This document shows, one piece after another, positions 2,742 to 56,219 of a DNA stretch of 64,000 nucleotides. A model generated the notes under the pieces. The model had not been told where the DNA came from. It searched no databases and saw only the letters and a list, made by a program, of their open reading frames with translations. Each line of letters starts with the position of its first letter. The first letter of the stretch is position 1. Position numbers and translations under genes: made by a program. The DNA comes from Balneolaceae bacterium (lineage in GTDB: Bacteria; Bacteroidota; Rhodothermia; Balneolales; Balneolaceae), in NCBI GenBank assembly GCA_034521495.1, contig JAXHMK010000019.1, positions 1-64,000 of the forward strand. Direction: 5' to 3'.

Positions 2742-3861
2742 GTGTAACTACCACTTAATTCGTTAAGTATTCTTCACCATAGGTCCAGTTGAACGGTTTG
2801 GCGCTGGTTTCGTTATACTCCCTAATGTAGCTCATCAACTGATCGACCAGATCTTTTTTGGAATGCCAAACTCCATCTTTGAGTATTTTCCGGCTCATAA
2901 TGCTAAACCAGATTTCAATCTGATTGAGCCACGAGGAGTAGGTGGGGGTAAAATGAAGGTGAAATTTTCTTTTTTTAGCCAGCCACTCCTTGACAGCCTT
3001 GTTTTTGTGGATTGACAAATTATCCAAAATAATATGGATCTGAACATTGCGGTATTTGCGGTCCAGGTGTTTGAGAAATTTCAGAAAATTTTCGGAGTTG
3101 TTGCGGTCGATCTGCCGTGCGGTGATTTCTCCTGTGTGCACGGCAAGAGCGGCCATCAGGTTTACGGTACCATTGCGTTTGTACGTAGTGGTAAGCCTGC
3201 GAGGGTTCCCTGTCCGTAAAGGCAGCTCCGGCTGGGTACGATCCAGGGCCTGAATCTGGGTTTTCTCATCTACCGATAGCACCAATGCGTGTTCAGGGGG
3301 ATTCAGATACAGACCAACAATATCAATCATCTTGGATTCAAATTCCGGATCCGGGCTTTTCCCGCACCAATAGTCGGTTTTGTGTGGCTTGAGGTCAGCC
3401 TCTCGCAGGATCTGTGAAACCCAGCTCTGGCTCATCTGGCACATTTCGGCAATCTGGTGTTGGCTGTAGCGCGGCGTTCGGCTTTCGGTGCGCTGGCAGG
3501 CCAGGTGGATCACCCGGTTGCGGTCTGCCTCCGTAAAGATCGATGGTGTGCCGGGGCGCTGGGCATCGACCAACCCTGCGAGTCCATCCCGTTCAAACCG
3601 CTTGCGCCATTTGGCAATGGAAGGTTCACTGATCCGATTCTTTTTGCTGGATTCTTTATAGGTCAATCCACCGAGCCAGTCTAAAATAATCTGAGCGCGC
3701 AGGCTCAGGCGCCGTTCTATCTTATGAGATCGTGCGTAGGTAATGAGTTGGCCTTTAACTTTATCTGAGACCGTGATTGTCGTACGTTTAGCCATCGGTT
3801 TTTCTTCTCAAGATACGGAATCAGTAAATATTTCACTTAACTTATTTAACAGTAGCTACAC
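2742..3861 (-). mobile_element. IS630-family insertion sequence, intact copy
   Basis: This 1,120-bp element is flanked by TA dinucleotides at 2740-2741 and 3862-3863, the target duplication expected of IS630/Tc1-mariner elements. Its ends are inverted: GTGTAACTACC on the left and, read inward from the right, GTGTAGCTACT. It carries one transposase gene. A second copy, near-identical but with one base inserted, lies at 12312-13432. The right-hand TA also borders an older truncated relative, so the elements are in tandem. Confidence 0.9.
2755..3795 (-). CDS. IS630-family transposase
   Basis: This 346-residue DDE transposase has an N-terminal helix-turn-helix region (about 25-75, containing LTYKESSKKNRISEPSIAKW), a second HTH (about 105-140, HQIAEMCQMSQSWVSQIL) and a C-terminal DDE domain. 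The three acidic residues lie in LSVDEKTQ, HIILDNLSIH and WLNQIEIWF. Length and motifs are those of an intact IS630 transposase. It occupies nearly the whole element, leaving only about 13 and 66 bp at the ends. Confidence 0.93.
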   Translation of the reverse strand: MAKRTTITVSDKVKGQLITYARSHKIERRLSLRAQIILDWLGGLTYKESSKKNRISEPSIAKWRKRFERDGLAGLVDAQRPGTPSIFTEADRNRVIHLACQRTESRTPRYSQHQIAEMCQMSQSWVSQILREADLKPHKTDYWCGKSPDPEFESKMIDIVGLYLNPPEHALVLSVDEKTQIQALDRTQPELPLRTGNPRRLTTTYKRNGTVNLMAALAVHTGEITARQIDRNNSENFLKFLKHLDRKYRNVQIHIILDNLSIHKNKAVKEWLAKKRKFHLHFTPTYSSWLNQIEIWFSIMSRKILKDGVWHSKKDLVDQLMSYIREYNETSAKPFNWTYGEEYLTN

Positions 3862-12311: not shown

Positions 12312-13432
12312 GTGTAACTACCACTTAATTCGTTAAGTATTCTTCACCATAGGTCCAGTTGAACGGTTTGGCGCCGGTTTCGTTATACTCCCTAATGTAG
12401 CTCATCAACTGATCGACCAGATCTTTTTTGGAATGCCAAACTCCATCTTTGAGTATTTTCCGGCTCATAATGCTAAACCAGATTTCAATCTGATTGAGCC
12501 ACGAGGAGTAGGTGGGGGTAAAATGAAGGTGAAATTTTCTTTTTTTAGCCAGCCACTCCTTGACAGCCTTGTTTTTGTGGATTGACAAATTATCCAAAAT
12601 AATATGGATCTGAACATTGCGGTATTTGCGGTCCAGGTGTTTGAGAAATTTCAGAAAATTTTCGGAGTTGTTGCGGTCGATCTGCCGTGCGGTGATTTCT
12701 CCTGTGTGCACGGCAAGAGCGGCCATCAGGTTTACGGTACCATTGCGTTTGTACGTAGTGGTAAGCCTGCGAGGGTTCCCTGTCCGTAAAGGCAGCTCCG
12801 GCTGGGTACGATCCAGGGCCTGAATCTGGGTTTTCTCATCTACCGATAGCACCAATGCGTGTTCAGGGGGATTCAGATACAGACCAACAATATCAATCAT
12901 CTTGGATTCAAATTCCGGATCCGGGCTTTTCCCGCACCAATAGTCGGTTTTGTGTGGCTTGAGGTCAGCCTCTCGCAGGATCTGTGAAACCCAGCTCTGG
13001 CTCATCTGGCACATTTCGGCAATCTGGTGTTGGCTGTAGCGCGGCGTTCGGCTTTCGGTGCGCTGGCAGGCAAGATGGATCACCCGGTTGCGGTCTGCCT
13101 CCGTAAAGATCGATGGTGTGCCGGGGCGCTGGGCATCGACCAACCCTGCGAGTCCATCCCGTTCAAACCGCTTGCGCCATTTGGCAATGGAAGGTTCACT
13201 GATCCGATTCTTTTTGCTGGATTCTTTATAGGTCAATCCACCGAGCCAGTCTAAAATAATCTGAGCGCGCAGGCTCAGGCGCCGTTCTATCTTATGAGAT
13301 CGTGCGTAGGTAATGAGTTGGCCTTTAACCTGTATCTGAGACCGTGATTGTCGTACGTTTAGCCATCGGTTTTTCTTCTCAAGATACGGAATCAGTACAT
13401 ATTTTACTTAACTTATTTAACGGTAGCTACAC
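12312..13432 (-). mobile_element. IS630-family insertion sequence, second copy
   Basis: This 1,121-bp copy is almost identical to the element at 2742-3861, with TA at 12310-12311 and 13433-13434 and the same GTGTAACTACC / GTGTAGCTACC inverted ends. It differs mainly by a net one-base insertion near the transposase start. The near-identity points to recent transposition within the genome. Copy-to-copy recombination could delete the intervening 8.5 kb, because both copies lie in the same orientation. Confidence 0.92.
12325..13366 (-). pseudogene. IS630 transposase with 5' frameshift
   Basis: The same transposase as the copy at 2755-3795 begins at the equivalent ATG near 13366. A one-base insertion around codon 16 (AACCTGTATC instead of AACTTTATC) breaks the frame. 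The remaining open frame (12325-13236, 303 residues) starts at the internal Met of MTYKESSKKNR and keeps the complete DDE domain, but loses the first 43 residues. It also has a Ser-to-Gly change near the C-terminus (NETGAKP). Activity from the internal start is doubtful. Confidence 0.85.
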
Positions 13433-49797: not shown

Positions 49798-50247
49798 GGA
49801 ATAAAACTTTTTACACAAATGAAACGTGCACAATATAACATTTACTATAAATCTTTAGCACCCCATCAAGTAAGAAAATTGTAAGCATACAGTAAGAGGA
49901 GTTACCCCATTTTCTATTGCAAAACGATCTGCGATATATTCTCATCTCAGTGTTCTGCTCCGGGATGGTAGTCAGGACTGCTCTGTTACATGTATTTAGC
50001 CAATATACGGCGGAGCAGAGCAACGCCTGCATTCTGTTTCACAGCAGAGCGGTGAATCAAGGGAAAAATGCTTTACTCTTCGCATGCCCTACGTAGCTTT
50101 AGCGAAGTTGGGCCTTGTGCACAACCAAATTTCCTGGTGCATAATCCCAGTTAAAAAAATGGGTTATCGAAACAATTCTGAGAAACCGACGTATATTTTC
50201 AAGACACAATTTTTGGCAACCGAAAGGTGCCAAATGCCCTAAAAAAC
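49798..50247. other. Intergenic region with foldable sequence; no gene
   Basis: About 450 bp between the divergently placed mltG 5' end and the Omp85-like 3' end. TCTGCTCCG (about 49959) can pair with CGGAGCAGA (about 50016), and TGCTCTG with CAGAGCA inside the same region. There is no recognisable RNA family and no coding frame. The mltG promoter must lie in its left part. Confidence 0.4.
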
Positions 50248-50284
50248 AGTCTCAGGCTTTGACCGGTCTGAGGCTCTTTTTTTT
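50248..50284. terminator. Bidirectional Rho-independent terminator
   Basis: A roughly 10-bp stem with some wobble pairs (AGTCTCAGGC/GTCTGAGGCT) and a GC-containing loop is followed by eight T on the plus strand and by six T on the minus strand. On the minus strand it lies 70 bp past the Omp85-like stop codon and so ends the envelope operon. Confidence 0.8.
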
Positions 50285-50353: not shown

Positions 50354-51745
50354 CTAAAAGGTAGGATTAAACCGAATCCACAATGTAGGCGATTTGTCGA
50401 ATGTTTTGAGCGGCCAGGCCATCTCAAGACGGAATGCCCCTGAACCAATTCCAAATCCGGCATCATGTTGCATATCAGAAACAGAGAATGAATCAAATCC
50501 GGTAAAAGGTGTATTTGAGTTCAGTAGTTCGGGTGATTGCTGCGTCCAGCCTGAATCGAGAAATAACAGGAGGTGCAGGTTATAATCTTCTATCCATTCT
50601 CCGGAATACCCTGATGGTCTTCCAAACTGAACTTCCAGATTACTCAAAATCATCTGGTTCCCCTGGAAAATCTTATAGGGCGATCCCCTGAGTGTACCAA
50701 TACCCCCCAGGTAAAAATCCTTAAAATCGGGAGCATTTCCTGTGATCCCACCGGCCTGAACTCTCCACCGGAAAATTGAACCGGGCTCAAAATTGTAATA
50801 CAATCTGAATTCCGATAAATATTTATTGAATCGGTAATTTTCGTCACTTGCATGATTATCAGCCAGTTCCGCTTTAACAGATGCTGCCATCGTAAATTTG
50901 TTGGCAATTAAAATATTTCGCGGATTTATAGAGAGGGATAAACCATAGATATCCAGATCTAACTGATCGGCATTTGCATCAACAGGGCGATTTATTCGGT
51001 ATGTACTGGATTTGCCGAATAACGAAAATTTGGTGTTTCGCTCAAGGCTTGAAAATGTATCGCGGTTATAAGAAAAACCCGCTTCCAGCCAACGTTGTGT
51101 TCGGAAAATTCCATAAAACCCAAAACCCTCCATGTTGTAGTAATCAGGATAATCATACCCTGCAAAAAAAGATGTCAGGGATGATTCAACAAGTCCAACT
51201 CGTTTATAGTCTTCTGTGTATGTAGCATCATGGAATTCGCCCCCAATCAACACTCTCCTGTTTTCGCCAATCACTTTCTCAAGGCCAATAGCATATTCCC
51301 ATTCTTTGGAAGCCGTTCCCCACCCAATAAGTCCATGAGGTTGAATTTGCGGAATATCAAGAAATGAGCCGTAACGGTGCCATTGCATTCGTTCTTTTCG
51401 ATAGCCAATAAACAAACCATTTACCCGATTGAAATGAATTGTAGGAAGATTGGGATACAAGCTGTAAAGATCACTGCTGTAATAGGGCCCCGCTTCAATA
51501 CTGCCTCCAAGATCTACACCGGTTCTTGATAATTGCTGTACTGCTGAGTCAACCTCATCTCTATCTTTCTGTTGCCCCTTCTGTTCACTGGTGGTATCCT
51601 TCCGCCCAAAAAGTTCATCGAGAGATTTATTAAAGATAGGATCCCTCTCAAAAGGATTATCCTGATTTTGGCTTTGAGCAAACAAGCCCGTTTGAGCAAC
51701 CAAAAAAACGATAAGTATTACCAGATATCTACTCATTCCATTCAA
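50354..51745 (-). CDS. Omp85/BamA-type outer-membrane beta-barrel without POTRA domains
   Basis: This 463-residue outer-membrane protein has a signal peptide (cleavage after GLFAQ) and then a low-complexity linker rich in D, Q and R (about 25-75). From there the sequence alternates as amphipathic beta strands. The C-terminal third shows LGGIGTLRGSPYKIFQGNQM then SNLEVQFG, the Omp85 pattern of an LRG loop followed by a G-N-x5-N-L-E strand. The last residues PTLWIRFNPTF end with Phe, the beta-signal. No POTRA domain is visible. It may be a TamA/patatin-type barrel. It is the last gene of the SpoIIE operon. Confidence 0.75.
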   Translation of the reverse strand: MNGMSRYLVILIVFLVAQTGLFAQSQNQDNPFERDPIFNKSLDELFGRKDTTSEQKGQQKDRDEVDSAVQQLSRTGVDLGGSIEAGPYYSSDLYSLYPNLPTIHFNRVNGLFIGYRKERMQWHRYGSFLDIPQIQPHGLIGWGTASKEWEYAIGLEKVIGENRRVLIGGEFHDATYTEDYKRVGLVESSLTSFFAGYDYPDYYNMEGFGFYGIFRTQRWLEAGFSYNRDTFSSLERNTKFSLFGKSSTYRINRPVDANADQLDLDIYGLSLSINPRNILIANKFTMAASVKAELADNHASDENYRFNKYLSEFRLYYNFEPGSIFRWRVQAGGITGNAPDFKDFYLGGIGTLRGSPYKIFQGNQMILSNLEVQFGRPSGYSGEWIEDYNLHLLLFLDSGWTQQSPELLNSNTPFTGFDSFSVSDMQHDAGFGIGSGAFRLEMAWPLKTFDKSPTLWIRFNPTF

Positions 51746-51799
51746 TTTTTATTCCCTACGATAAGAAAATGATTGTGTTACATTCAGATCCATTAAAAA

Positions 51800-53890
51800 T
51801 TAATTCTGCATCTTTAAAACCATGATCGTGATATCATCATGAGGTTCTCTGCCGCCAGACCAGGTGTTTATCAATTGTGTGAGTTGATTTACGATATCGT
51901 TTGCGCTCATTCCATCAGAATTACAAAGAAGATTTTCTATCTTATTCAAACCAAGCATTTCCCGTTTGGGGTCAAACAACTCCGTCAGGCCGTCACTCAT
52001 CATCAACAGGATATCCCCGGTATCCATAGTAAACTTCTCATTTTCGTATGGGTACTTTACAGTTCCTCCCAGAGGTAATCCTTTGAGTGTAATTCTATCC
52101 ACACAGTTTGTATTTCTCTTAAAATGTAATGCAGGCGGCATACCCGCTGTTGCAATCTCAATCTCATTTCCTTTGCACCGGGCCAACATCAGCCCCATAT
52201 ACATCATTTTCATATTCATATTACGCAAGCCTGAAGATATTCTCCCTAACATGGTTAGATTATTCATCTCATGGACGAGTGTATGAAAATAGCTCTTTGC
52301 AGCCGCCACCATAATTCCGGCTTTCATTCCGTGTCCCGTTGCATCGCCTAATGCAAGCACTAATGTACCGTCCGGGGCTACGCTATAATCGTAGTAATCG
52401 CCTCCTACTTCTGTTGCTGTCTCCATAAACACGGCCAAATCATATCCGGGCAGAGATGGCATTTTTTTCGGTAACATGGAAAGTTGCAGAGCCCGTGCTT
52501 CTTCAAGTTCAGTCGTTTTGCGTTTGTTTTCTGCCTCCAGCAGTCGTTTCTCAATTTCCCGCTCCTTATTAATGCGCTCCTGTTCTAATGAACGCTTCGA
52601 CAGATGTCTCACTTCAATTAGTTTCTGTTCGAGCCTTCTTTGCGTAATTGCAAAATCGCGAGACAAAAATACCGACATCGACATAACCAGGACTCCCGAA
52701 CCAACCATATTTCCAAGTTGTACGCTTCCTGATAGAATCTCAAAATTTACCATCACATTGTAGATAAGAGAAAAAACATAAACTAAAACGCCAACTCCCA
52801 ACAACCATACACCACCCCGATTTCTATAGAACATTACGATAACGGTTCGGAGTATCTCTGCTACAAAAACTAAAATGGCTAACTCTCTGAGCCAAACCGT
52901 TTGCATGGGATAATACCATATCAACAAACTCACTATTATACCCGCCGCCACCAGGAAATTGGAATAGAATGGTGTAATCTTCTTGTCGATACTGTGTGTA
53001 AAACGGGTTGCAAAGGTGAGTACCAGCACTTCTATAACAAATATAAATTTAATGAATTGAAGTGTGCCTGTTGTGTTTTCAAGTAGTTCTACTTTGTAGA
53101 TCAGGTAGGATAGAATGGCTAAAAAACCGACAAAAATCGAAAAATAGAGATTCCTCTTTTCCGACGGATAAAACACAAAAAGCAGAAAGTGGATAACCCC
53201 AAAAGCCAGCAAGGCGCCAATGTAAAATAGATTTCTGCCCGTCCATTGAGATATGAATGAAAATGTCTCCTCCTGGTGATGTTCCCAATCTCCCAACAGA
53301 AACCGAAACCCGTTATAGCCCATCATCAACTCCGTTTCAGAATAATTTGGATTGATAAAGCGGACAGCTAAGGTTTGAAATTCCTGGTCAGAAAATACTA
53401 TGGCAAGAGGATTGTTGCTGTTGTACGAAGCAACTGATTCCGGATCGGTCGAAAATTCTCCCAGTTCTTTTACTTTCTCACCATTCAGATAGATTTCTGA
53501 TGCACCAAGATGGCGTTCAACAATCAGTGCAACCGGTTTTCCCCTTAAACTTTCATCAACCCGAAACTGTTTTCGGAACCATCCGATTCCCGACCAATCC
53601 ATAAATGACAGATCGGCCTGAGACAAGTTCGTACTTAAATAATCCCACCCCGAGTCATCATAATTGGGATCGGCCCATGCCAGGCTGTCTCCCACTCTGA
53701 ATTTCCACAGATCCTGAATGTAGATAATTTTGTTCTCATTCTGCATCATATCCGCAGAAATCTCTTCGATTTCCGCTTCGGGAAATTGGAAAATATCTTC
53801 ATCCTGGGCAGATAAAGAATCACCCCAGAGGAGAATGATGCCCCAAAAAACAATATTAAATATACCCAGTTTATACACCTTTGAATTCAC
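51800..53890 (-). CDS. 7TM-DISM receptor with SpoIIE/PP2C phosphatase output (RsbU-like)
   Basis: This 696-residue membrane receptor has a signal peptide (1-28), a periplasmic jelly-roll/galactose-binding-like sensor (about 55-195; WADPNYDDSGWDYLSTNL, YLNGEKVKELG), seven hydrophobic segments (about 210-415), a coiled coil (about 418-470) and a cytosolic SpoIIE/PP2C domain with EVGGDYYD (494-501), GDATGHGMKAG (515-525) and the terminal PHDDITIMVLK. All metal-binding aspartates are present. It should dephosphorylate an anti-anti-sigma-type partner in response to an envelope or ligand cue; none is adjacent. Its ATG overlaps the DUF4097 stop by four bases, so the two are coupled. Confidence 0.9.
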   Translation of the reverse strand: MNSKVYKLGIFNIVFWGIILLWGDSLSAQDEDIFQFPEAEIEEISADMMQNENKIIYIQDLWKFRVGDSLAWADPNYDDSGWDYLSTNLSQADLSFMDWSGIGWFRKQFRVDESLRGKPVALIVERHLGASEIYLNGEKVKELGEFSTDPESVASYNSNNPLAIVFSDQEFQTLAVRFINPNYSETELMMGYNGFRFLLGDWEHHQEETFSFISQWTGRNLFYIGALLAFGVIHFLLFVFYPSEKRNLYFSIFVGFLAILSYLIYKVELLENTTGTLQFIKFIFVIEVLVLTFATRFTHSIDKKITPFYSNFLVAAGIIVSLLIWYYPMQTVWLRELAILVFVAEILRTVIVMFYRNRGGVWLLGVGVLVYVFSLIYNVMVNFEILSGSVQLGNMVGSGVLVMSMSVFLSRDFAITQRRLEQKLIEVRHLSKRSLEQERINKEREIEKRLLEAENKRKTTELEEARALQLSMLPKKMPSLPGYDLAVFMETATEVGGDYYDYSVAPDGTLVLALGDATGHGMKAGIMVAAAKSYFHTLVHEMNNLTMLGRISSGLRNMNMKMMYMGLMLARCKGNEIEIATAGMPPALHFKRNTNCVDRITLKGLPLGGTVKYPYENEKFTMDTGDILLMMSDGLTELFDPKREMLGLNKIENLLCNSDGMSANDIVNQLTQLINTWSGGREPHDDITIMVLKMQN

Positions 53891-54891
53891 TTTTGAGATT
53901 CAGATACTTGAATTCTTCCCGACATTGTTGACACGCGAACCGGTAAACCACCCTCTCTAATGACGACATTGAGGTCTCGTTGGTTTTGATCACTTTCGGT
54001 GATACTTGATTCTCTCAATCCTCTTAAATCATAACTCATTGCACTACCTTCAATGTCAAAACCACTCGTTTCCGGCAGAAACAGTTCAATATCTCCGCTA
54101 ATTGTTTCTAAATAAATTCCTTTTGATACATCCGTAAAATCAGCATAAATATTCCCGCTTGTTGTTGCGGAAACCAGCGTACCTCTCATCTTTGATGCAT
54201 GAATATCTCCCGAAACCGAACGGACTCGTGCCTCACCGGAGTTCGAAACAATGTTCACACTCCCGTTCACGGTCTTAGCGTACACATTGCCTTTTACGTT
54301 TGCCAAATCAATATTTCCCGTGGTGGAAACAACCCGAATCTCTCCCTTTGTATGACTTATACTAATATCTCCTGTCTGATTCTGTATAAAGTGATCTCCT
54401 TCCACATCATCAAGAAAAATATTTCCATTAAAAGCACGCAGATTTGTAGTTACGTTTTTCGGGGTTTGTACTAAAAAATGAAATTTAATATCGCTGTCTC
54501 TTGGAACTTGACCCGATTTTTTATCCTCCACAGATGCAATTATACGATCACCCTGCTGCTGTAGAATTATCCGGAAATTATCGAGACTTCTTCGCCCCGA
54601 CCACAGCGAAAAACTTCTCTCCAGAAACAGATCAACTTTAACGCCGTTAATATCCGGGTTTTGAAAAACTTCAATATTCCCGGTGGTTGTATGAACCGTT
54701 ACTTTTGGGATTCCGCGTACCCTGAAAAATTCGGATTTATAGGGCTTTTCCTGTAAATCACCGAAAGAAGTGGTTTCTGTAAAGTTCTCGCTATAGTTAT
54801 GGTAAGCAACCTGTTGAGCAGATGAGCTATCAGGAATAACTGAGAACAAGATCAGAGCAATATGGAGAAAGATTGATTTCAAAAACGTCAT
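53887..54891 (-). CDS. Exported DUF4097 beta-helix repeat protein
   Basis: An upstream ATG (54960) exists, but the ATG at 54891 gives a standard signal peptide (MTFLKSIFLHIALILFSV, cleaved after SSAQ). The mature protein is a run of roughly 20-residue beta-strand units: VTVHTTTGNIEVFQNPD, LRAFNGNIFLDDVEGDHF, NQTGDISISHTKGEIRVVST, TGNIDLANVKGNVYAKTVNG and SGDIHASKMRGTLVSATTSG. That is the DUF4097/adhesin-like right-handed beta solenoid. Such proteins accompany membrane stress and sigma/anti-sigma systems. It overlaps the 7TM-SpoIIE gene by 4 bp and could be its sensor partner (inference). Confidence 0.85.
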   Translation of the reverse strand: MTFLKSIFLHIALILFSVIPDSSSAQQVAYHNYSENFTETTSFGDLQEKPYKSEFFRVRGIPKVTVHTTTGNIEVFQNPDINGVKVDLFLERSFSLWSGRRSLDNFRIILQQQGDRIIASVEDKKSGQVPRDSDIKFHFLVQTPKNVTTNLRAFNGNIFLDDVEGDHFIQNQTGDISISHTKGEIRVVSTTGNIDLANVKGNVYAKTVNGSVNIVSNSGEARVRSVSGDIHASKMRGTLVSATTSGNIYADFTDVSKGIYLETISGDIELFLPETSGFDIEGSAMSYDLRGLRESSITESDQNQRDLNVVIREGGLPVRVSTMSGRIQVSESQK

Positions 54892-55001
54892 ATGCAGCAA
54901 ATGGTAGTGATGTATCATCCAAAAAATATCGACATCAGCATAACGGAACAGTTCCGCCATCTATCTTCATTACGCCATCTTTCCATAGTGTGTTGCAGAC
55001 T

Positions 55002-55562
55002 CTAATAAGATTTTGTTTTAAAAACTCCAATCAAAAAAAGGATATGATCATTTAACTGTTTTTCAATGAGTTCCGCTCCTTTTCGGATATCATCCCGCGA
55101 TACATTTGCCGCAAATCGTTTATCCTTCAGCTTTTTTGTAACGGATTTTACTTTCATATCTGAGAATCCATTTGGCCTCATCAATGCAACAGCATTCATA
55201 AATCCCGAAAGTTCATCACAGGCAAAAAGGTATCGTTCTATCTCCGTTTCCGGCTGTTTTCCGGTTCGCCCGGGCGCATGTGCTTCGATAGCTGATAATA
55301 TTTCTGACGGATATTTAAAGGGAGGTAAAATTTCATTTAAAGCTTTTTGAGGATGTTCATCCGGATATTTTTCCCAATCCAGATCGTGTAATAAACCTGC
55401 TGTCCACCAATTTTCTTTTTCCTGATCCGGTAATCCCAGTTTATCTGCATAACCTTCCATAGCATCCGCTACCATATGGGAATGGAGAATTAAACTATCG
55501 GATTCTATATACGTTTCCAGCAATTCTTCAGATTGCTCTCGTGTTCTATCTATTGTATTCAT
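55002..55562 (-). CDS. HD-domain hydrolase
   Basis: This 186-residue cytoplasmic protein has an HD fold. H27 lies in LILHSHMVADAM, the His-Asp pair H59/D60 in WTAGLLHDLDWEKYP, and a further His in AIEAHAPGRTG. A later D lies in LFACDELSGFMNA, as in many HDIG phosphohydrolases. The substrate, probably a nucleotide, is not predictable. It overlaps the TM2 gene by one base and precedes DUF4097 by about 110 bp from the chosen start. Confidence 0.85.
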   Translation of the reverse strand: MNTIDRTREQSEELLETYIESDSLILHSHMVADAMEGYADKLGLPDQEKENWWTAGLLHDLDWEKYPDEHPQKALNEILPPFKYPSEILSAIEAHAPGRTGKQPETEIERYLFACDELSGFMNAVALMRPNGFSDMKVKSVTKKLKDKRFAANVSRDDIRKGAELIEKQLNDHILFLIGVFKTKSY

Positions 55563-55909
55563 CAGTCAAACTCTCTCAACAGATCTTTTGCAACTTTCCG
55601 GTTATACTCAAATGCAAAATTCTTGTAATTAATCATATCAACAATTGTACCGATAAAACAAAGCCCTACAGTTAGTAAGTAGAGAATTCCCATTCCTATA
55701 TGTCCTACAAAAAACCGATGGATTCCGGCAACACCCGGAACCAGGCCCAATACGGCTAATGCCATAAATAATATCGGATCTTTCCGCCGGGATCGATAAA
55801 TATTTGAGAACATTTTTGCCTTCTCATCCGGCATGTCCTCAATAATATGGCCGATATATTCAGACTCATCTCCTTCAAGTTCAGGCAAGTATTCAAATAT
55901 CTTTTTCAT
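55562..55909 (-). CDS. TM2-domain membrane protein
   Basis: This 115-residue protein has a charged N-terminus (about 1-45) followed by the TM2 domain: two hydrophobic helices joined by a short turn, with the signature GVAGIHRFFVGHIGMGILYL and a conserved Asp in TIVDMINY. TM2 proteins are small integral membrane proteins of unknown function. It overlaps the DUF2752 gene by 17 bp and the HD gene by 1 bp, a tightly packed operon. Confidence 0.9.
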   Translation of the reverse strand: MKKIFEYLPELEGDESEYIGHIIEDMPDEKAKMFSNIYRSRRKDPILFMALAVLGLVPGVAGIHRFFVGHIGMGILYLLTVGLCFIGTIVDMINYKNFAFEYNRKVAKDLLREFD

Positions 55910-56219
55910 AGTTCTTTTCTTTTTTAAGGTTATTATTACGCTGAAATATAGAACCTATTCTCGCAATGATTACTAAGATTGAAATGATACCCAAAGGATG
56001 GGTCTGCACGGATGCTGTCAGATTTCCGCGCGCTGCAAATGCTACAGATTTGCCTAATCCACAACCGGGACAGAATTCGAATCCCAGGCGATCAATCAGG
56101 CAAAAAGATGGTGCCTGGCTGAACGGATCCAAAAGTGCCATCAGTAGAAGACCTGAAAGCAGGGCTATCCACTCAAAATGCAAAAAAAAGTAATATCTGA
56201 ATGGTTCTCTGTCAGACAT
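55893..56219 (-). CDS. DUF2752 membrane protein
   Basis: This 108-residue protein has two or three hydrophobic segments and the DUF2752 hallmark CLIDRLGFEFCPGCGLGKSV, where a CPGCGLG turn lies between the first helix and the HPLGIISILVIIARIG helix. The cysteines could bind a metal or form a disulfide. Function is unknown for the family. It is the first gene of the six-gene minus-strand operon; its start faces the TonB receptor gene, with about 47 bp between them. Confidence 0.88.
   Translation of the reverse strand: MSDREPFRYYFFLHFEWIALLSGLLLMALLDPFSQAPSFCLIDRLGFEFCPGCGLGKSVAFAARGNLTASVQTHPLGIISILVIIARIGSIFQRNNNLKKEKNYEKDI

Follow-up and report, generated by a model that had tools for sequence, protein, structure and literature searches.

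The window, by which we mean the whole analysed stretch of 64,000 nucleotides, carries six minus-strand open reading frames that encode, in this order, DUF2752, TM2, HD, DUF4097, SpoIIE and barrel proteins. The original prediction had read this row as an envelope operon, and the six genes, their order, their single direction and the overlaps of 17 bp (DUF2752/TM2), 1 bp (TM2/HD) and 4 bp (DUF4097/SpoIIE) are all borne out by the open reading frames of the window. The HD and DUF4097 genes are separated by 41 bp and the SpoIIE and barrel genes by 54 bp; the former gap would widen to about 110 bp if DUF4097 translation starts at an internal ATG near 54891, which, judging from homologs, is probably its true start. 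Matches above the Pfam cut-offs were obtained for DUF2752, TM2, HD, DUF4097, SpoIIE and 7TMR-DISM_7TM, and an Rfam scan of the window returned no match. The features are listed below, the cassette being defined in the following section.

55893–56219, minus strand: DUF2752 membrane protein with a CPGCGLG motif, neighbour (Pfam DUF2752, 2.1e-11)
55562–55909, minus strand: TM2-domain protein, neighbour (Pfam TM2, 3.6e-11)
55002–55562, minus strand: HD-domain protein, strongly conserved neighbour (Pfam HD, 2.3e-8)
53887–54960, minus strand: DUF4097 (Toastrack) beta-solenoid protein, probably exported, cassette gene 1 (Pfam PF13349)
51800–53890, minus strand: 7TM receptor phosphatase (7TM-SpoIIE), cassette gene 2 (Pfam SpoIIE and 7TMR-DISM_7TM)
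50354–51745, minus strand: predicted POTRA-less Omp85-like barrel, neighbour and not a cassette member (Omp85 match in orthologs)
50248–50275, plus strand: hairpin with a T-run, tail to about 50284 (conserved in L059 and L060)

The row goes beyond a chance arrangement, because its order recurs in most loci of the same genus. Within that genus, however, gene order is kept all the way from guaA to MsrB, so that order by itself proves little. The HD protein retains about 70% identity across the family. The DUF2752 motif reads CPGCGLG in the window and CPGEGLG in some other genera (L080 and L050 were compared). Elsewhere in the window, two nearly identical transposase-like open reading frames lie at 2755–3795 and 12325–13236.

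The barrel of the window scores 21.4 bits against Omp85, below the cut-off of 24, and the profile matches 6 of 12 orthologs (best E 1.2e-6); an LGGIGTLRG-type motif is conserved. No POTRA match was reported for the barrel, and a PDB sequence-profile search with it gave no usable match. We describe it as a putative POTRA-less Omp85-like protein, an assignment that is weak in the window protein itself. Omp85 barrels that lack POTRA domains are known as noNterm Omp85 proteins (PMC4104836). The window barrel resembles these in being Omp85-like without POTRA domains and differs from them in carrying a short segment, some 90 residues long, at its N-terminus and in adjoining a signalling cassette, on which it does not depend.

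The row had also been assigned a shared terminator at 50248. As worded, this does not hold: a stem with a T-run is called there on the plus strand only, and separate folding of the two strands yields -19.8 kcal/mol (z -3.5) for the plus strand and -12.6 kcal/mol (z 0) for the operon strand, where the fold is no better than that of shuffled sequence. In L059 and L060, too, this hairpin lies 3′ of the barrel gene; a bidirectional terminator is therefore possible, although on the operon strand of the window it would be weak. The interval 49833–50248 holds no listed plus-strand gene upstream of the plus-strand hairpin.

Loci with and without the receptor

We sampled 92 genomes of the family, 39 of which encode a full-length receptor ortholog. 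Where a DUF4097 ortholog is present, it lies directly upstream of the receptor at 33 of 33 testable loci and, as a fragment, in G047 (34/34); the pairing could not be judged in G054 and G048, where the contigs stop at DUF4097 and inside the receptor, respectively. The pairing of DUF4097 with SpoIIE thus extends beyond the genome of the window, to all 34 testable genomes that have the DUF4097 ortholog and to a second family. A DUF4097 profile search agrees with this picture: the high-scoring ortholog adjoins the receptor in every case where the contig extends far enough, and matches elsewhere are mostly lower-scoring paralogs. In G038, the ortholog next to the receptor does not outscore the paralogs, so that score alone cannot separate ortholog from paralog. 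Most family genomes also have a second DUF4097 paralog, which lies outside the cassette (L231, L232, L233); in the genome of the window, the profile search found no such paralog at E below 1e-30.

The barrel gene occurs without the receptor in 20 family genomes. At all 13 of the receptor-less barrel loci that we inspected, DUF4097 and 7TM-SpoIIE are both absent; HD and barrel are direct neighbours in 11 of them, and TM2 and DUF2752 are close by in most. In the other seven of the 20 genomes, the best DUF4097 match and the barrel lie on different contigs. In a tree built from 49 barrel proteins, the presence of both genes requires three changes, all of them forced by well-supported branches; DUF4097 and the receptor were thus lost (or gained) together on at least two separate occasions. 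If a single gain is assumed, the joint losses fall in G013 (inside genus g3) and in the group formed by g13, g17 and g18. Some branches of the tree are long (L102, L200), which weakens the exact placement of those rows.

Five genomes (G003, G034 and G039–G041) encode the receptor without DUF4097, and in G003 and G034 the barrel too is missing from the locus. The same state is seen in L202, from the same order, and in L121 and L126, which derive from MAGs named Balneolales and Balneolia; among the relatives inspected in Ignavibacteria, Poribacteria, Acidobacteria and Calditrichia, no DUF4097 of the cassette type adjoins the receptor. The receptor can therefore dispense with DUF4097, as it does in these five genomes and in the relatives inspected outside the order. 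The pair without the other four genes is found in a second family of the order (L201, which is G199, and L101), and in L102, outside the family, it occurs together with HD and barrel.

Joint absence, together with the observation that DUF4097 is never found without the receptor where this can be judged, defines a two-gene cassette lying between housekeeping envelope genes; only DUF4097 and the receptor clearly belong together among the six genes, a conclusion that is well supported. An alternative, that of the original prediction, treats the six genes as a single envelope pathway whose output or monitored client is the barrel. The short gaps and overlaps, the order conserved in the genus and the presence of the barrel in 37 of 39 receptor genomes are in keeping with a single pathway, but barrel and HD persist without DUF4097 and the receptor, mostly alongside TM2 and DUF2752, in L201 and L101 the pair stands without the other four, and guaA, a PBP gene and YceG hold similarly conserved places without an evident tie. 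Since the barrel is retained without the cassette, it is not a dedicated output, and we regard a single six-gene system as the least probable reading of the locus. It is also improbable that the pair stays together by inheritance alone, with gene order decaying slowly and no functional tie. Such decay would account for the likewise conserved guaA–MsrB neighbourhood of the genus, but not for the repeated, well-supported joint loss or gain of exactly these two genes, nor for the different neighbourhood in which the pair sits in another family (L201).

Architecture of the receptor and its DUF4097 partner

The SpoIIE domain of the receptor matches PF07228 with 115.6 bits (cut-off 25, E 3e-33) and its 7TM module matches PF07695 (7TMR-DISM_7TM) with 33.9 bits (cut-off 29, E 4e-8). 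An AF2 model with a pLDDT of 85 displays a signal peptide, a beta jelly roll and a bundle of membrane-spanning helices, followed by a single long helix and the PP2C domain. From model and profiles, the parts of the receptor are delimited as follows.

Residues 42–201: GH2-like jelly roll
Residues 202–390: 7TM module
Residues 390–471: signalling helix
Residues 480–696: PP2C/SpoIIE domain

The N-terminal part matches GH2 sugar-binding domains in a PDB profile search (6ed1, E 1.7e-8); a Pfam scan at E 0.1 found no 7TMR-DISMED match in the receptor, the GH2-type jelly roll standing in its place. In alignments of 17 and 23 sequences, D498, D516, D633, D685 and D686 are invariant. We take these acidic residues to be the metal ligands of the PPM family, and the alignments indicate that the catalytic site is intact, in agreement with the assignment of the receptor as a SpoIIE phosphatase. 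The linker, a single helix from 390 to 471 in the AF2 model, is strongly conserved, and a Foldseek search with the C-terminal part returned RsbU-RsbW (3ke6) as the best PDB match, with SiaA (6k4e) near the top and RssB also among the matches. In RsbU, a helical linker controls the PP2C dimer, and linker-driven dimerisation has been demonstrated experimentally (PMC12143880); by analogy, the long helix of the receptor may drive its PP2C domain in the same mode.

The DUF4097 domain scores 56.0 bits against PF13349 (cut-off 22.9). The AF2 model (pLDDT 76) is a solenoid whose structure matches 4qrk, 4opw and 3pet, the first two of which are given as Toastrack examples in PMC11237479; a PDB sequence-profile search gave no usable match. 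As homologs start with signal-like N-terminal segments, the protein is probably exported and periplasmic, which supports its earlier description as an exported protein. Toastrack has been argued to be intracellular in PSP-type fusions (PMC11237479), from which the window case, with its signal-like N-termini, differs. NCBIfam models for LiaG (E 1e-17) and LiaX (E 5.5e-6) match the protein, both below their cut-offs. The C-terminal domain of LiaX restrains LiaFSR (PMC11601895), and on the strength of this restraint and of the LiaX match below cut-off we propose that DUF4097 may gate the receptor.

DUF4097 had been cast as the periplasmic sensor partner of the receptor. The partnership stands, in the form of a conserved pair; the role of sensor does not follow, since the receptor possesses a periplasmic jelly roll of its own and lives without DUF4097 in five genomes; accessory or co-sensor is the more fitting term for DUF4097. 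The same two observations, together with the separate DUF4097 paralog in most family genomes, speak for a different arrangement, in which DUF4097 takes no part in sensing. It would instead protect the envelope or resemble an adhesin, co-transcription would tie its dose to the receptor, and the receptor would sense by means of its jelly roll alone. A free-standing protective protein would, however, often be left behind without the receptor, a state in which DUF4097 was never found at the loci examined, and we consider this arrangement rather unlikely. Evolutionary distances of DUF4097 follow those of the sensor, 7TM and linker parts of the receptor, which is compatible with gating, but they follow those of the barrel no less strongly and therefore single out no interaction between DUF4097 and the receptor.

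STAS proteins as candidate targets

It had been suggested that an anti-anti-sigma (STAS) target lies elsewhere in the genome, and candidates are indeed present: the genome of the window encodes stand-alone STAS genes as well as RsbW-like kinases. No STAS gene adjoins the receptor in the window or in Balneolales, nor at about 45 loci outside. At four distant loci (L112, L113, L204, which is L151, and L205), a STAS gene lies 25–39 bp downstream of a receptor homolog, and in L115 the homolog is followed by RsbW and then STAS. The STAS proteins of all four distant loci are most similar to the two GGPDA-type STAS proteins of the window's genome, one of which is encoded behind secDF-like genes and the other on C10. 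The L204 protein is identical to the secDF-linked STAS at 52 of 111 positions and has 23 residues in common with the C7 STAS. The secDF-linked gene (G000:C18:63079-63390; L091 6053-6400) lies 28 bp behind the secD-secF-like genes.

STAS genes downstream of some distant receptor homologs, and the position of their closest counterpart behind secDF, suggest that the receptor output is probably partner switching. Because genes related to the secDF-linked STAS occur in nearly all family genomes, this type is most likely the better target candidate than the one on C10. STAS and RsbW genes as such are found in nearly every family genome, with or without the cassette, and the STAS counts per genome, judged by eye, do not obviously track the receptor.

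We rejected the orphan RsbW–STAS–ECF sigma operon on C10 as a dedicated target, since its RsbW ortholog occurs in only about 16 of the 92 genomes, both with and without the receptor. At this site (G000:C10:769500-771500; L088 5479-7330), an RsbW-like kinase, a STAS protein, an ECF sigma factor and a 488-aa protein (possibly an anti-sigma factor) are encoded in a row, with a divergent STAS gene close by and no phosphatase nearby; here partner switching seems to be coupled to an ECF sigma factor.

Proposed signal path and related systems

We consider it reasonably probable that DUF4097 and 7TM-SpoIIE together form an input cassette for envelope signals that acts through the PP2C domain on a STAS protein. 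The receptor would reside in the inner membrane, where its GH2-like jelly roll, together with the periplasmic DUF4097 solenoid docking on or gating it, would sense the state of the envelope. The signal would pass through the 7TM bundle into the long helix and cause the PP2C domain to dimerise or re-orient; this domain would in turn dephosphorylate an anti-anti-sigma protein of the STAS class, with the secDF-linked type as the most likely substrate, and the dephosphorylated STAS protein would bind an RsbW-like kinase, so that the target of the kinase is freed.

The receptor shares with RsbU, RsbP and SiaA a SpoIIE-type PP2C domain with conserved acidic residues, a helical linker, an N-terminal sensor and, in some distant homologs, STAS neighbours; it differs from them in an input built from a seven-TM module and a GH2-like jelly roll, in the partner gene for a DUF4097 protein predicted to be exported, and in the lack of an adjoining STAS gene at the window locus. 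Like 7TMR-DISM receptors, it combines a 7TM module above the Pfam cut-off with a periplasmic N-terminal domain and a cytoplasmic output domain, whereas its extracytoplasmic part matches GH2 sugar-binding domains and not 7TMR-DISMED. With LiaX, LiaG and Toastrack of the lia and PSP systems, the locus has in common a DUF4097 solenoid genetically tied to a membrane stress sensor. Unlike in those systems, the partner is a phosphatase receptor and not a histidine kinase, and DUF4097 is apparently exported by a signal peptide; no PspC, PspA or LiaF-type match was obtained among the scanned proteins of the window locus.

Our literature search returned no paper linking SpoIIE with 7TMR-DISM, nor relevantly with Toastrack/DUF4097. 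More tentatively, the cassette could represent a previously undescribed envelope sensor, in which a periplasmic Toastrack co-receptor of a 7TM phosphatase feeds a lia/PSP-type stress input into partner switching and not into a histidine kinase. DUF4097 proteins are common and mostly unexplained, and a two-gene unit that is gained or lost as a pair offers a direct test of DUF4097 control over a sensor. If the proposal is true, one periplasmic solenoid serves both kinase-based and phosphatase-based stress systems, and the receptor group of the window gains a likely STAS target. Large SpoIIE proteins of about 500–1900 aa also form tandem arrays on Ignavibacteria-type contigs (L131, L135, L151, L204 and L205), some of them beside STAS genes.
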